From NCBI GenBank assembly GCA_023150835.1, contig JAKLKB010000211.1:1-10254 (forward strand): a DNA stretch of 10,254 nt. Direction: 5' to 3'. A program made the position numbers and the translations under genes. The notes below the pieces were generated by a model. It searched no databases. It saw nothing but the letters and a program-made list of their open reading frames with translations, and was not told the DNA's origin. Shown here piece after piece: positions 2,445-10,254 of the stretch. Each line of letters begins with the position of its first letter. Within the stretch, counting starts at the first letter, position 1. This stretch comes from Myxococcota bacterium. Its GTDB lineage: Bacteria; Myxococcota_C; UBA6777.

Positions 2445-3599
2445 TCAGCACCCCAACAAACGTGCGATCACCATACGCTGGATCTCCGAAGTCCCTTCGC
2501 CGATCTCCAACAGCTTTTGATCGCGGTAAAAACGTTCGACGTGGTATTCGTTGATCAGCCCGTAGCCACCGTGTATCTGCACCGCATCCGCCACCACCCG
2601 CTTCATCACTTCTGAGCAATATAGCTTGGCCATCGCTGCTTCTTTCTTGAAGTCTCGCTTGTGGTCGCACAACCAGCACGCCTTGTACAATAGATTGCGC
2701 GCTGCTTCGATCTCCATCGCCATATCCGCCAACTTGAACGAGATCGCTTGGAACTGACTGATCGCTTTGCCAAATTGCTTGCGTTCTTTCGCATAGTTCA
2801 GCGCCATCTCAAACGCCCCTTGCGCCCCTCCCAAGCCCATCGAACCGATGCTCAAACGTCCCTTGTCCAACGTCGCCAACATCTGACGAAAACCATCCCC
2901 TCGCCGACCCAACATCGCACTCTCTGGCAGTTCCACATCCTCAAAATACAACTCTGCTGTATTCGAGGCACGCCACATCATCTTGCCGTGGATACTGCGC
3001 GACGTAAATCCCGGCGTTCCTTTCGCGGGCATCAAGAAATTCGAGTATTCCTTCTTTCCTCCCACCGAGTCCTCCGTCACCGCTTGCACCACGATCACCT
3101 CGGTCATCTCGGTCGCGCCGTTCGTAATAAAGATCTTGCTCCCGTTCAGCACCCATCCCTTGTCCGTCTTGCGCGCCCGTGTTTGCGTCCCTCCCGCGTC
3201 CGATCCCGCGTTCGGCTCCGTCAATCCAAACGCAGCCAACCCTTTTCCCTCCGCCAACATCGGCAACCAACGCTCTTTTTGCTCCTCGTTCCCAAAATAC
3301 GCGATCGGTCCCACACCCAATGAATTCGCCGCCGCCACCGTCGCGGCATGCGAACCATCCACTCGTGCGATCTCTTCTACTGCCAACACATACGTCAGAT
3401 AATCCGATGCCATCCCACCATATTGCTCAGGAATCAAAAAGGCAAACATCCCCAACTCGCCCATCTTCCGGGTCAACTCAACACTAAATTCTTCTTTGGC
3501 ATCCAACGCTATCGCACGCGGCTTGATCTCGGCTTCTGCGAATCGACGGATCTGTTGGCGAAACTCTTCTTGCTCGGGACTCAGATCAAAGTTTAACAT
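2445..3599 (-). CDS. Acyl-CoA dehydrogenase (short/branched/butyryl-CoA type)
   Basis: A 384-residue FAD flavoenzyme catalysing alpha,beta-dehydrogenation of an acyl-CoA (fatty-acid or branched-chain amino-acid breakdown), passing electrons to ETF. The N-terminal helical domain begins [15 protein letters not shown]. The middle domain has [14 protein letters not shown] (124-137) and [14 protein letters not shown] (168-181). The C-terminal helical domain has [20 protein letters not shown] (273-292) and [20 protein letters not shown] (341-360). The likely catalytic base is Glu368 in GEGTSEIQR, the usual short/medium-chain position. I chose the ATG at 3599: AGGAGAAGG lies just upstream, and the longer in-frame start at 3686 falls at the -35 element of the predicted promoter and would add a non-family extension. 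It is first in the operon with the Hsp70 and J genes. The substrate cannot be told from sequence alone. Confidence 0.95.
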
Positions 3600-3657
3600 C
3601 TGCCTTCTCCTGCCCTCTCTCGCGGCTTTGGGGGACTGTTGCGAAACATACGCCGCT

Positions 3658-3686
3658 ATGATAGCCAACTCCCCCCCGCTCGACAA
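3658..3686 (-). promoter_or_regulatory. Predicted sigma70-type promoter of the acyl-CoA dehydrogenase-Hsp70-J operon
   Basis: On the minus strand TTGTCG (3686-3681) and TATCAT (3663-3658) are separated by exactly 17 bases, giving 4/6 and 5/6 matches to the sigma70 consensus. The expected transcript start is near 3651, leaving a leader of about 50 bases before the ATG at 3599. The element lies in the 128-base divergent gap. The -10 core reads as a -10-like hexamer on the other strand too (TATGAT, 3657-3662), but that strand lacks a good -35. Confidence 0.5.
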
Positions 3687-3727
3687 TAGAAGTCTTTCAC
3701 GAATTCAAACAAAGGACACTCACGCTG

Positions 3728-4858
3728 ATGATCCCACACACACACCGCTCTCTTTCTCCTCTGTTCATCCAACCCATCCACCGCTCTCTTTCGCTCTTTC
3801 TTCTCCTTGCCTTTCTGCTCGTACCACCCCTTCGACCCACCACTCCCCTCGCCCAAACTCCTCCTCTCCCCAAGATCCGTATCCTCCCCGAACCTCCCCT
3901 CTGGAGCTTCCATGCCCAACAAGCCGTCCTACACCTCGATCTCCACCTCCAAAGTACTCCCCAAGAACCCCTCTCCTTGCGCTTCGCCCAACTCTACGCC
4001 GCTTCCAAAGGCCAAACCCTTCACATCCACGTCTTTTCCAAAGACACCCTTCTCGCTTATGCCCGTCGCTTCGACTCCCAACAACGCGCTTGGCTCCCCC
4101 ACCACTCAACCGACCTCCCGCCCTCCAGCGATCTTGTCTTGTCCCTCCCTCCCCTCCGTTATCCACGCCATCAAACCCCCGATTCCTTGCTCCTCCGCCT
4201 TTACTTCCAACAAGGCCCCCGCGCCCTTCAACGCACCCTTTCCATCCAACCCCAGTCTCCCGCTCTTCCTCACCTCCGCTTTCCCGTCCGTGGCCGCTGG
4301 TGGGTCGCCAACGGACACGGACCCGCCGCACCCCACCGTCATCGGCTCCGCGAACCCTCCGCTCCCTTCCTTGCCCCCCAACGCTTTGCCCTCGATCTCT
4401 TGCGCATCGACCACAACAACCGCATCCATCGCGGCGCTCCCCACCAAAACGAAAGCTTCCTCGGATTCTCCGAACAAGTCTATGCCCCCGCTGACGGACA
4501 GATCCACTCCATCGAACGCCACCACCCCGACCCCCACCCCGGTCGACCCGACAAACAAAATCCCCTCGGAAACTACATCCTGATCCAACACACACACCAA
4601 CTCTTTTCCTTGCTCGCCCACCTCAAACAAGGCTCCATCCAAGTCGAACCCAAACAATCCGTTAAAGCTGGACAATGGATCGCCCGCGTCGGAAACAGCG
4701 GCGACGGCTCCACTCCCCACCTCCATTTCCAACTCCTGCGCTCCCCACAACCCGAATCCGCACCCTCTCTCCCTCCCCTCTTCTGGGGACTCTCCGCACC
4801 TCTCGGTACCTTCTCTCCCTTCTGCCCCCAAGACGGACAAATCGTCCTCGCTTTCTAA
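3728..4858 (+). CDS. Secreted M23 (LytM/lysostaphin-type) zinc metallopeptidase
   Basis: A 376-residue exported protein. The N-terminus has basic/histidine residues, a hydrophobic stretch about 20-33 and a likely signal-peptidase site near PLAQ (40-43). Residues about 50-190 form an unassigned domain. The M23 domain runs from about 190 to 335: an NGHG...HRH...QRFALD segment (195-223) supplies the usual first zinc ligands (H203 or H205, and D223), then VYAPADGQI (251-259), LLAHL (295-299, H298) and GNSGDGSTPHLHF (322-334, HxH at H331/H333). It probably cleaves peptidoglycan peptides in the periplasm or envelope. ATG 3728 follows AAAGGA by about 11 bases. It is the only intact long plus-strand gene and is divergent from the dehydrogenase. 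Composition is odd: by my count 49 Pro and 27 His, matching the C-rich plus strand. Confidence 0.9.
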   Translation: MIPHTHRSLSPLFIQPIHRSLSLFLLLAFLLVPPLRPTTPLAQTPPLPKIRILPEPPLWSFHAQQAVLHLDLHLQSTPQEPLSLRFAQLYAASKGQTLHIHVFSKDTLLAYARRFDSQQRAWLPHHSTDLPPSSDLVLSLPPLRYPRHQTPDSLLLRLYFQQGPRALQRTLSIQPQSPALPHLRFPVRGRWWVANGHGPAAPHRHRLREPSAPFLAPQRFALDLLRIDHNNRIHRGAPHQNESFLGFSEQVYAPADGQIHSIERHHPDPHPGRPDKQNPLGNYILIQHTHQLFSLLAHLKQGSIQVEPKQSVKAGQWIARVGNSGDGSTPHLHFQLLRSPQPESAPSLPPLFWGLSAPLGTFSPFCPQDGQIVLAF

Positions 4859-6202: not shown

Positions 6203-6294
6203 CCGCACTCAGCGCATCCGCCCACTCTGCCCCTAACCACCGCACTCAGCACTTCCGCCAACAGCATCAACCGATCGCAGGCAGCGCATCCGCC
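6203..6294 (-). repeat. Degenerate short repeats derived from or resembling the lysC 3' end
   Basis: Read on the minus strand, GGCGGATGCGCTG occurs inside the end of lysC (6294-6282) and again, identical over 13 bases, at 6222-6210. A third, variant copy GGCGGAAGTGCTG lies at 6259-6247. The two copies outside the gene share a longer 20-base frame ending GAGTGCGG, spaced 37 bases apart. This looks like slipped duplication at the 3' end of lysC. Confidence 0.5.
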
Positions 6295-7691
6295 GACGTC
6301 ATCTGGCGATCTGCGTACACCGAATCGCTCACAAAAAACGCCTCATGCAACGCCTTCATCGCCTCGATCGCGTAGTTGGGTTCCGTCACCAACGTCACGT
6401 TGATCCGCGAAGCTCCCTGCGAGATCATGTGCAACGGGATCTGACGATCCCCCAACATCGCAAAGATCCGACCCAACAACGACGAATCTTGCCGCAGCCC
6501 CGAACCCACCAAACACAACAGGCTGCGCTCTTTCTTTTGCTCGACATTCGCAAACGCCGATATCTCCGCAATCGCCGCGTCCAGATCTCCTTCCCAATAA
6601 TCGAACGTCATCGAAACCGACACTTCGCTCGTTGTGATCGCATCGACAGACACTTGATGCCGCGACAAGATCTCGAAGATCCGCGACAAAAACCCCGGCG
6701 CTTCCAACATCCCCAACGAACGCACCAACAGCGAACGCACATTCTTGCGCAGCGCGATCGCACGCAACGGCTCGCTCGGGGCCTTGTCGTCGATCAACGT
6801 CCCTTGCAGATATCGCGGATCTGGATCGTTTGGATCGACATGAAACGTCCCCAACACCCGCACCGGAATCCCATTGCGACGCGCTGGTTCGATCGTTCGC
6901 GGATGCAGCACCTTGGCCCCGAAAAACGCCAACTCCGCTGCTTCTTCAAAACTCACCGCCGGCACCAACGAGGTATTCCCCACCACTCGCGGATCCGCTC
7001 GCAAGATCCCCGGAACATCCGTCCATATCTGGATCTCATCCACCTTCGCCGCCGCACCAAACACCGCTGCTGAAAAGTCCGATCCTCCACGACCCAACGT
7101 CGTGATCTCGCCCTGAATCGACCGCGCAATAAACCCCGTCACCACCGCGATCTCATCCGATTGCAACCGCGCCACCGCACCCTCGATCTCAGGATAACAC
7201 TCCGGTAACACTCCCGCCCGCGTATACCGCTGATCTGTACGCATCCCCAATTCCCAACTGTCCCACGCCTTCGCTGGATGCCCCATCTTCCGCAACGTCG
7301 CCGCCAACAACCTCACACTCATCCGCTCCCCAAGCGATGCCAACATATCCCGCACCCTCGGACTCACCTCCCTCAACAAAAAAATACCCCCCAACACCCG
7401 ACGCAGCTCCTCATACTGCGCTTCGATCAAACCAAAACCCAAACCCAGCTTCTCGATGATCGCATCGTGCCGCCCAATAATCTGCTTCTCTAATTCCTGA
7501 TACGCCTCCCCTCTTTGCGCTTGCTCCGCCACCTCCAACAGCATATCCGTCACACCGCCCAGCGCCGACACCACCACGATCGGCCAGCGCGTCTCCCGCG
7601 CTACCAACTGCGCCGTCCTTGTCATCGCCTCAGGCGTCCCCACACTCGTCCCACCAAACTTCATCACCACTTTTCCTTGATGCCGACTCAC
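6267..7691 (-). CDS. lysC: Aspartate kinase (aspartokinase), monofunctional
   Basis: A 474-residue enzyme phosphorylating L-aspartate, the first step to lysine, threonine and methionine and to diaminopimelate for cell wall. The amino-acid kinase domain starts with the nucleotide-binding motif KFGGTSVG (11-18). It continues with SLGERMSVRLLAATL (119-133), TTLGRGGSDFSAAV (197-210), DVPGILRADPRVV (225-237) and the FFGAKVLHPRTI segment (256-267). Two ACT regulatory domains follow, about 315-385 and 390-452, typical of feedback-inhibited enzymes; the effector cannot be read off. No homoserine dehydrogenase is fused. The assigned start is GTG 7691 with AAAGG nearby. ATG 7664 (residue 10) with AAGGA upstream is an alternative, but kinases of this family usually have a few residues before KFGGTS. 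It lies 100 bases downstream of lysA, same strand, likely one operon. Confidence 0.96.
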   Translation of the reverse strand: MSRHQGKVVMKFGGTSVGTPEAMTRTAQLVARETRWPIVVVSALGGVTDMLLEVAEQAQRGEAYQELEKQIIGRHDAIIEKLGLGFGLIEAQYEELRRVLGGIFLLREVSPRVRDMLASLGERMSVRLLAATLRKMGHPAKAWDSWELGMRTDQRYTRAGVLPECYPEIEGAVARLQSDEIAVVTGFIARSIQGEITTLGRGGSDFSAAVFGAAAKVDEIQIWTDVPGILRADPRVVGNTSLVPAVSFEEAAELAFFGAKVLHPRTIEPARRNGIPVRVLGTFHVDPNDPDPRYLQGTLIDDKAPSEPLRAIALRKNVRSLLVRSLGMLEAPGFLSRIFEILSRHQVSVDAITTSEVSVSMTFDYWEGDLDAAIAEISAFANVEQKKERSLLCLVGSGLRQDSSLLGRIFAMLGDRQIPLHMISQGASRINVTLVTEPNYAIEAMKALHEAFFVSDSVYADRQMTSADALPAIG

Positions 7692-7725: not shown

Positions 7726-7793
7726 ACATACAGCCTCTTCGCTGCGCTTCTTTCTTTGATGCCCACACATACGGACTCTTCGCTTCGCTGCTT
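7726..7793. repeat. Imperfect direct repeat between lysA and lysC
   Basis: The stretch ACATACAGCCTCTTCGCTGC (from 7726) recurs, with mismatches, as ACATACGGACTCTTCGCTTC (from 7767), a 41-base offset. Each copy is about 27 bases and contains CTCTTCGCT followed by a pyrimidine-rich tail. The right copy touches the lysA stop codon. It appears to be a small tandem duplication in the spacer; no function is assigned. Confidence 0.5.
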
Positions 7794-9207
7794 ATTCGCC
7801 TTGGCGTTTCAACGATGCTGGGATGCAATCAAGCCGCAACATCGATGCGGCATCTTCGCGCATAGCCAACAACTCCGCCCGTCCTTCGGAGACCATCACC
7901 ACCGCAGGACGCGCCACCCGATTGTACTGGCTCGCCATGCTGTATGTGTACGCTCCCGTTGACAAGAACGCCACAACATCATCCACCCGAATATGCGGAA
8001 GATACACATCTTTTTGCAACATATCCCCCGACTCACAACAACGACCCGAGATCGACCACAGCGTATCGGGCTTTTCATTCATCCGATTTGCCAAGGCCAC
8101 TTGGTATTTGGCGTTGTACAGCGCAAAGCGCGGATTGTCCGTCATCCCGCCATCCACGCTCGCATAATTGCGTACACCCTCGATCTCTTTGATGCTCTGC
8201 ACCGTGTACAACGTGACACCCGCTCGACCCACGATCGAACGCCCCGGCTCATCGCACAACAACGGCGGTTCCACCTCGTACTCTTCCGCCAGTTCCATCA
8301 CTCGCCGGCGCATCCGCGCAAGATGCTCGCCCACCGATGGCGGGACATCATCCTCCGTATAACGAATCCCGATCCCTCCCCCCATATTCAACTCATCCAA
8401 CGGCGCTCCCAACTCTTTTTGCACATACGCATAAAACCGCATCATCGACTCTACCGCCACCGAAAACGGCTTCAAATCGAAGATCTGCGAACCGATATGA
8501 CAGTGCAAACCCACCAGCCTCAATCGCGGATATCGCAAGATCTTCAACACCGCTTGTTCTGCCGCACCGCTCGCCAAATTAAACCCAAACTTCGAGTCCA
8601 CTTGTCCTGTCTGGATCGCTTGATGTGTCGAAGGCTTTACCCCGGGCGTCACCCGAATAAACACCCGCGCCTCTTTCTCCATCGCTTCCGCCATCTCCCC
8701 CAATCGCTCGATCTCTGCAAGGTTATCGATCACGATCCGACCGATCCCCATCTCCAACGCCAGCCGCAGATCCTCTCGCGTCTTTGCATTCCCGTGCATC
8801 AAGATCCGCTCCGCTGGAAAACCCGCCGCCCTCGCCGTCTCCAACTCCCCCCATGACGCCACATCCAAACCCATCTCTTCTTGTTCCATCAACCGACAAA
8901 AGCCTGTCGTCAAAAACGCCTTGCTTGCATAATACACCCGCGCTCGCGGATACTGCTCGATCTGCTGCTTGTACGCTCGGCAATTCCCCCTCACCACTTC
9001 TTCCAACAACACCACCAACGGACTCCCAAATCGTACCAGCAGATCCCGCACATCATGGCCCGCCAACGTCATCACTCCCGACTCATTCACCCCATAAATC
9101 GGCGGCTCCGTATACACCATCTCTTCCATCATCGCCCATATCCCTTCGTCTCTCTGTGGCCTCGCTCTCAAACGCGCTGCCTCCCTGCTTTTTCTTGCAA
9201 CCATCAC
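7792..9207 (-). CDS. lysA: Diaminopimelate decarboxylase
   Basis: A 471-residue PLP enzyme converting meso-diaminopimelate to L-lysine, the last step of lysine synthesis. It is a fold-type III decarboxylase: the alanine-racemase-like barrel carries the Schiff-base lysine in YYASKAF (K96), HCHIGSQI (235-242), LNMGGGIGI (273-281) and CDEPGRSIV (318-326). The C-terminal beta domain has CESGD (391-395; the cysteine reaches the partner active site in dimers of this family) and GAYTYSMASQYN (418-429). The start GTG 9207 (or ATG 9204) has GAGGA six bases upstream. This gives a basic N-terminal extension of about 30 residues over the usual length near 420. ATG 9132 (residue 26) is the alternative and would remove it. 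The promoter at 9229-9257 fits the longer form with a very short leader. Gene order lysA-lysC on one strand suggests co-transcription. Confidence 0.96.
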   Translation of the reverse strand: MMVARKSREAARLRARPQRDEGIWAMMEEMVYTEPPIYGVNESGVMTLAGHDVRDLLVRFGSPLVVLLEEVVRGNCRAYKQQIEQYPRARVYYASKAFLTTGFCRLMEQEEMGLDVASWGELETARAAGFPAERILMHGNAKTREDLRLALEMGIGRIVIDNLAEIERLGEMAEAMEKEARVFIRVTPGVKPSTHQAIQTGQVDSKFGFNLASGAAEQAVLKILRYPRLRLVGLHCHIGSQIFDLKPFSVAVESMMRFYAYVQKELGAPLDELNMGGGIGIRYTEDDVPPSVGEHLARMRRRVMELAEEYEVEPPLLCDEPGRSIVGRAGVTLYTVQSIKEIEGVRNYASVDGGMTDNPRFALYNAKYQVALANRMNEKPDTLWSISGRCCESGDMLQKDVYLPHIRVDDVVAFLSTGAYTYSMASQYNRVARPAVVMVSEGRAELLAMREDAASMLRLDCIPASLKRQGE

Positions 9208-9273: not shown

Positions 9274-9765
9274 TCAACCGACTAAATCCGCCGCATCCAA
9301 GCGCTTTAAGAGGCTTGCGCCTTTTTCTCGCTCCACCACGACGATCTCTTCTGGCTCGAAAAGATCCAAGAATGTCGAAGATTGCGTCGCAAACAGAATC
9401 TGCGTGTGTCTTGACACAAAACGGGCAAGTTCCGCCACCATCCGAATCGCCTTGGGATGCAAGCCAAGTTCCGGCTCGTCGATACTCATCCACCTCGGCA
9501 AAGAACTTGGCTTCGCTCCATCTTCGCAAGGTACGCAGCAAGATTCCCTCCGTCCGTGTGGAGCCGCTGATCGTCTTCCACTCGTGCGTATGTCCTCAAT
9601 GCAGAATTCACCGAAGTATCGTAGAAATGAACAAAAGGTCATCGCATTTAGCCAATCCCAAAACGCAGCAACAACCTGATCTTGCGATGCGGCCTCTTCC
9701 AACGCGCTCTCTCCCAACCCCGCACGGCTTGACTGTGAAATCCTTTCAACCCCATCCACACCCAC
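9274..9765 (-). pseudogene. Broken AAA-family ATPase (AAA_21/COG4637-like), frameshifted and internally deleted
   Basis: Remains of an ATPase of the RecF/SMC-like AAA_21 type. The frame ending at 9274 carries a Walker B and following segment, SIDEPELGLHPKAI, then ILFATQSSTFLDLF and EEIVVVEREKGASLLKRLD, all as in intact members. The frame upstream of 9640 holds GESALEE...FWDWLNAMT. The family block FVHFYDTS...DDQRLHTDGGNLAAYLAKM sits in a different frame (9638-9486), so a one-base slip at the T4 run 9636-9633 is needed. Between NLAAYLAKM and the Walker B region the usual 100 or so residues, including the LSDGT-type signature, are missing. A GCGAAG repeat (minus strand; 9527-9522 and 9516-9511) marks the probable junction. 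The N-terminal Walker A part is absent and the C-terminus ends early. The ATG at 9765 is not an original start; recognisable similarity begins near 9717. Family assignment is from memory of conserved motifs. Confidence 0.8.
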
Positions 9766-9779
9766 CCTCTCCCCCTCAG

Positions 9780-10052
9780 ATCGAACGGATCGAACGCGGC
9801 ATGAACCTCACAGGCGTGGAAACCAATATCGTTGTCTCCGTCAAATCCATCTTCTTGATCGCCCCTGATGTTTGGGAACTCACCTACCGCTTGCCCGATG
9901 GCTCTACCCGCGAACAGATGATCCGTAGAGAAGACGAAACACGCATTGAGATCGCCGAAAACGAAAGACCCTTCACTTTTGACGGCGATCCCGCCCGCCT
10001 TCGATCGATCTTGATCGGCTCCAAAGACTCTTGGAACGCGGGTTCTTGTTGA
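9780..10052 (+). pseudogene. N-terminal stub of a large SF2/SNF2-type helicase
   Basis: The plus-strand frame (with an internal ATG at 9801) reads IERIERGMNLTG, then SVKSIFLIAPDVWELTYRL, REQMIRREDETRIEIAENE and RPFTFDGDPARLRS. This matches my recollection of the N-terminus of bacterial helicases whose next conserved blocks are a RLxxEAxRI...LFDP segment and the PLPHQ-type Q-motif, a DISARM DrmD-like/DUF3883-associated group. Similarity stops at about 10003, the frame ends at 10052, and no helicase motor motif is present, so only about 75 residues of a protein normally near a thousand remain. The similarity appears to begin before ATG 9801. It is adjacent to a DprA-like fragment in another frame and head-to-head with the broken ATPase. 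The helicase assignment is moderately sure; loss of function is near certain. Confidence 0.6.
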
Positions 10053-10192
10053 GCCAAGCCGTCGAACAATGGCGCACCCGTGCGATCTGGGTTCTCAGCC
10101 GCGCAGATGCAGATGGCTCATGTTGTGTTTTGAGGTCTTTTTCGAAAAACGTGGTATCATCGGGCTTCATGGCTTGTTTGCCCTTGACATGA
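10004..10192 (+). pseudogene. Internal fragment of a DprA/Smf-like DNA-processing protein
   Basis: The frame opening at about 10004 reads IDLDRLQRLLERGFLLSQAV then EQWRTRAIWVLSRADAD (to about 10114). This resembles the region in DprA/Smf-like proteins that precedes the ssDNA-binding Rossmann core, where intact proteins continue with YPxRLK and then the VGSR motif. Here similarity breaks off after RADAD and unrelated residues run to a stop at 10190-10192. There is no start codon and no Rossmann core, so it is a relic of about 37 recognisable residues. It begins almost exactly where the helicase stub ends, in a different frame. Confidence 0.55.
10130..10160 (+). promoter_or_regulatory. Possible promoter for the gene entering at the right edge
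   Basis: TTGAGG (10130-10135) and TATCAT (10155-10160) are separated by 19 bases. The -10 is good (5/6) and the spacing is longer than ideal. It lies between the end of DprA-like similarity and the candidate start at 10219. A lone TTGACA at 10184-10189 has no fitting -10 downstream. Confidence 0.25.
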
Positions 10193-10218
10193 GAGGTCTC
10201 AGAGGAACGTCTCGCGAC

Positions 10219-10254
10219 ATGACAGTTGAAGAAAACAACGAAAACTCTCGGGGG
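10219..10254 (+). CDS. Start of an unidentified gene, cut by the window edge
   Basis: ATG 10219 opens a frame reading MTVEENNENSRG to the last base. GAGGAA at 10202-10207 lies 11 bases upstream, and a promoter-like element is about 60 bases upstream. A second in-frame ATG at 10189 would add ten residues. The residues are hydrophilic and acidic, as in many real N-termini, but twelve residues are too few to identify a family. Confidence 0.35.
   Translation, partial: MTVEENNENSRG

Follow-up and report, generated by a model that had tools for sequence, protein, structure and literature searches.

Content of the locus

The window, that is, the whole stretch of DNA analyzed, comprises the entire 10254-bp contig C179; the genome to which it belongs is 7.56 Mb long, in 239 contigs. 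The comparison set consisted of five genomes of the phylum, including the source genome; G001 was the sole congener. The genes to the left of the region of interest are ordinary, with Pfam matches to a DnaJ-domain protein, Hsp70, an acyl-CoA dehydrogenase, an M23 peptidase, an FkbM methyltransferase, and lysA. The M23 peptidase gene is overlain by long open frames at 3496-4494 (plus strand) and 3765-4595 (minus strand), which are probably a shadow of base composition. The features at and near the right end of the window are as follows.

6267-7691: aspartate kinase gene (ask), read from the translation of the open reading frame
7792-9207, minus strand: lysA, diaminopimelate decarboxylase, intact, the left flank (Pfam PF02784, 1.9e-58; PF00278, 1.4e-16)
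9277-9501, minus strand: 3' part of an AAA_21/HEC-01A ATPase gene, corresponding to residues 270-344 in a homologue of 367 residues (HEC-01A, 1.1e-26; AAA_21, 2.9e-9)
9519-9629, minus strand: central part of this ATPase gene, in another frame, residues 157-193 (tblastn with three intact homologues, 35-41% identity)
9777-9995, plus strand: 5' end of a gene for the SNF2-type helicase HmaA, residues 2-74 of 1170 (HmaA model positions 3-78 of 1176)
9986-10114 (start approximate), plus strand: internal piece of a gene for the DprA-like protein PsyrA, joined in a different frame to the end of the HmaA piece (PsyrA model positions 59-103)
10115-10254, plus strand: left end of a dispersed noncoding repeat, inside which the contig stops (32 matches in the source genome)

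Homology of the three fragments

Between the start of lysA (9207) and position 10114, three dead gene fragments occupy about 840 bases on both strands. PADLOC models matched the minus-strand open reading frame (HEC-01A, 1.1e-26), the plus-strand open reading frame (HmaA, 2.7e-14), and a shifted frame behind the latter (PsyrA, 2.9e-6 for the window piece and 7.1e-9 in the six-frame search of the genome). Intact homologues taken from plasmids were mapped back onto the interval, with tblastn used for the ATPase, and scored 73.9 bits (AAA ATPase), 65.5 bits (HmaA), and 64.3 bits (DprA-like). The best score that any of 16 queries reached in 500 first-order Markov shuffles of the interval was 27.7 bits, and the homology of all three fragments was therefore deemed to lie far above chance. 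The preliminary description of three broken genes from defense families, within 900 bases and on both strands, was thus borne out by the profile matches, the mapping of homologues, and the shuffle control. All three are homologous to defense families, and the labels required correction, from SMC-like to AAA_21/HEC-01A, from DrmD-like to HmaA, and from DprA-like to PsyrA.

The ATPase remnant extends over about 9277-9629 and lacks both ends. Its 3' piece spans the Walker B motif (IDEPELGLHP) to near the C terminus and is 48% identical to Ideonella WP_151124348.1 (48-51% across HEC-01A homologues). About 76 residues are deleted between the two pieces, and the Walker A half is absent. HEC-01 is a PADLOC candidate system composed of an AAA ATPase and a DUF4276 protein; the remnant shares Walker B and the C-terminal part with HEC-01A, but the system requires a complete ATPase with both Walker A and Walker B.

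The HmaA piece is 42% identical to R. rhizogenes WP_200985538.1, which itself scores 2077 bits on the HmaA model. Hma, consisting of a helicase, a methylase, and an ATPase, was put forward as a candidate defense system (PMC8565338). The fragment retains the first 74 residues of HmaA, whereas 94% of the protein, including the motor domains, is gone. A search of 386 genomes with the HmaA piece gave distant helicases only (28-41% identity), so no close donor was found. An open frame of 1175 codons with HmaA-like helicase matches is present elsewhere in the source genome (contig C7, 3784-5733) and may be an intact member of the broad helicase family.

The PsyrA piece joins the HmaA piece in a frame-breaking fusion, the contact being located to within about 10 bases. 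It is 72% identical to residues 61-103 of a DprA-like protein of S. meliloti (numbering of the translated stretch) and 56% identical to residues 73-104 of Nostoc WP_104902325.1. The closest PsyrA relative was found on S. meliloti pSymB (L081, 9807-11233), with 77% identity over 39 residues; that gene, too, is split between two frames and carries no annotation, and it adjoins an annotated RecQ helicase gene with transposases nearby.

A working protein cannot come from any of the three fragments, the ATPase being without Walker A, the helicase without its motor motifs, and PsyrA without its central Rossmann part.

The dispersed repeat and the continuation of the contig

The right-hand end of the window belongs to a repeat with a 24-bp terminal inverted repeat, GGCTCATGTTGTGTTTTGAGGTCT; two-ended copies (L007:1505-1984, 480 bp, and L002:1501-2043, 543 bp) finish with its reverse complement. 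The copies of 10115-10254 in the source genome are 91-100% identical, and a full copy used as the query gave about 70 matches. The repeat contains no gene and is made up of nested repeated units; many copies lie at contig ends, and some are partial. The short reading frame at the end of the window, MTVEENNENSRG, is part of the repeat, and stops interrupt this frame in other copies. The ends of the repeat were not found in the four remaining genomes of the set, of which the congener has interior pieces only. Short length, absence of a gene, terminal inverted repeats, and multiple copies are shared with MITE-like and other short interspersed bacterial repeats, but the present repeat differs in being filled with nested repeated units. 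No consistent target-site duplication was seen in the two two-ended copies. The interval had been described as flanked by housekeeping genes; this holds on the left, where lysA lies, but what was taken for the next gene on the right is the left end of the repeat, and the housekeeping neighbor on that side, an aminotransferase gene, lies on a different contig.

Contig C231 is strongly supported as the continuation of the window contig. Its final 94 bases overlap window positions 10161-10254 with 100% identity, and from there the repeat runs from 35049 down to 34731, reaching position 356 of about 480. Directly after it lies the 3' end of psyrA (34733-34254; PsyrA model positions 261-397, 4.3e-19). 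The two psyrA ends match, in order and 470-471 bp apart, one gene each in S. meliloti (CP090106) and Nostoc (CP026685), and both match PsyrA (PDLC03927) as parts of a broken gene only. About 157 psyrA codons and the right end of the repeat are missing at the junction. An aminotransferase gene follows about 2.4 kb beyond the psyrA 3' end; in G003, a single contig carries the order aminotransferase, SEC-C, lysA, ask, and the aminotransferase is 62% identical to its C231 orthologue. The join spans a repeat common to several contig ends and was made from gene continuity and synteny rather than from reads; the repeat alone would be no proof, and the two contigs were taken as neighbors because continuity and synteny agree. 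The repeat was likewise deduced to sit in a dead psyrA gene because C231 has the repeat followed by the psyrA 3' end and because the aminotransferase gene lies near lysA in G003.

Short tandem-like repeats (CTGAACGCCTTCGAGCG...) were observed after the psyrA 3' end, at about 3900-4260 of the segment C231:30000-35049 (L030), and the noncoding part of the interval therefore extends past the window.

Searches of the interval and of C231 for partner genes gave no match above chance for three DUF4276 homologues (HEC-01) or for the Rhizobium HmaB (DUF1156 methylase) and HmaC (ATPase) proteins. PsyrTA, which PMC8790059 enters as a RecQ toxin-antitoxin pair, pairs a RecQ helicase with the DprA-like PsyrA; no similarity above chance to the upstream RecQ-family partner was found in the interval or in 5 kb of C231. 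The remnant thus differs from PsyrTA in lacking RecQ and in having the central ~157 codons of PsyrA replaced by the repeat, and it is nonfunctional. Pieces located elsewhere could account in part for the missing partner genes.

The same position in relatives

Orthologues of lysA, 61-73% identical, were present in G002, G003, and G004, which belong to other genera; neither lysA nor the aminotransferase gene was found in the G001 assembly (86% complete). Beside lysA, G003 carries a SEC-C gene, and G002 and G004 carry an ABC transporter gene (names read from translations). No counterpart of the SEC-C gene was found in the interval or on C231. No defense gene lies beside lysA in any of these three relatives.

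These data bear on the suggestion that the position is an integration hotspot that repeatedly takes up defense cassettes, the window copy being a decayed occupant. The content beside lysA does vary, from the dead defense genes in the window to SEC-C or ABC transporter genes, and the interval is not the same short stretch in all relatives. The variation can nevertheless be accounted for by ordinary rearrangement between genera, every lysA-bearing relative is without defense cargo at this position, and neither a tRNA nor an Rfam family or other structured RNA was found within the window, nor was an integrase seen in the interval. A hotspot is thus unsupported rather than disproved, and we regard it as unlikely. 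The broader proposal that the lysA side is a recurrent landing site for defense genes in the phylum, and that the repeat spreads by inserting into and deleting such accessory genes, appears quite improbable.

Origin of the remnant

The intact homologues of the three fragments occupy three different operons, one with the AAA ATPase and DUF4276, one in which methylase and ATPase genes accompany HmaA, and one with RecQ and DprA, and the PADLOC models recognize representatives of all three intact systems. The interval was therefore interpreted as a graveyard of several known modules rather than the ruin of one new system. The alternative, that an HEC-01-type ATPase, an HmaA helicase, and PsyrA were parts of one multigene cassette, possibly undescribed, would fit the placement of three pieces within 900 bp and of the HmaA and PsyrA pieces on one strand. 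In every intact neighborhood examined, however, the genes stand in separate operons with other partners; moreover, the ATPase lies on the opposite strand, and the contact between HmaA and PsyrA is a frame-breaking fusion. PsyrTA of Acinetobacter merely lies inside a BREX island, which illustrates how such neighbors arise. One cassette is accordingly very unlikely, and of the earlier claim that a defense cassette once stood here, the decayed defense genes stand, whereas the single cassette gives way to three systems whose partners left no detectable trace. An assembly artefact, either a chimeric contig or sequencing errors in intact genes, would suit a fragmented genome and a contig that stops at a repeat, but it is highly improbable: the genes are broken by large deletions and by a fusion rather than by single-base frameshifts, a second copy of the HmaA fragment was not found in the genome, and whatever else matched the ATPase and PsyrA pieces was either a distinct paralogue or the piece on C231.

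The interval is thus very probably a nonfunctional remnant of horizontally acquired defense genes from at least three separate known modules, cut by deletions and by the repeat. HEC-01-type ATPase, Hma, and PsyrTA modules would once have stood between lysA and the aminotransferase gene, and their intact genes presumably gave phage defense there. Successive deletions would have taken most of the three modules and fused the first 74 hmaA codons to the inside of psyrA. The repeat would have inserted into psyrA, and a deletion would have removed the ~157 psyrA codons along with the repeat's right end. This order, and loss by deletion, fusion, and repeat insertion, is read from the anatomy observed, namely, the homologies, truncations, frame breaks, fusion, and repeat. 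The three fragments could also have arrived already broken.

The suggestion of an undescribed system was not upheld, the pieces belonging to the known Hma, HEC-01, and PsyrTA; the locus points to no new defense system and is a fairly ordinary gene graveyard. It also cautions that a contig edge can pass for a next gene. For this barely sampled lineage, the locus indicates that three defense modules were present and then lost, and it provides a clear example of defense-gene loss through stacked deletions and the insertion of a repeat.
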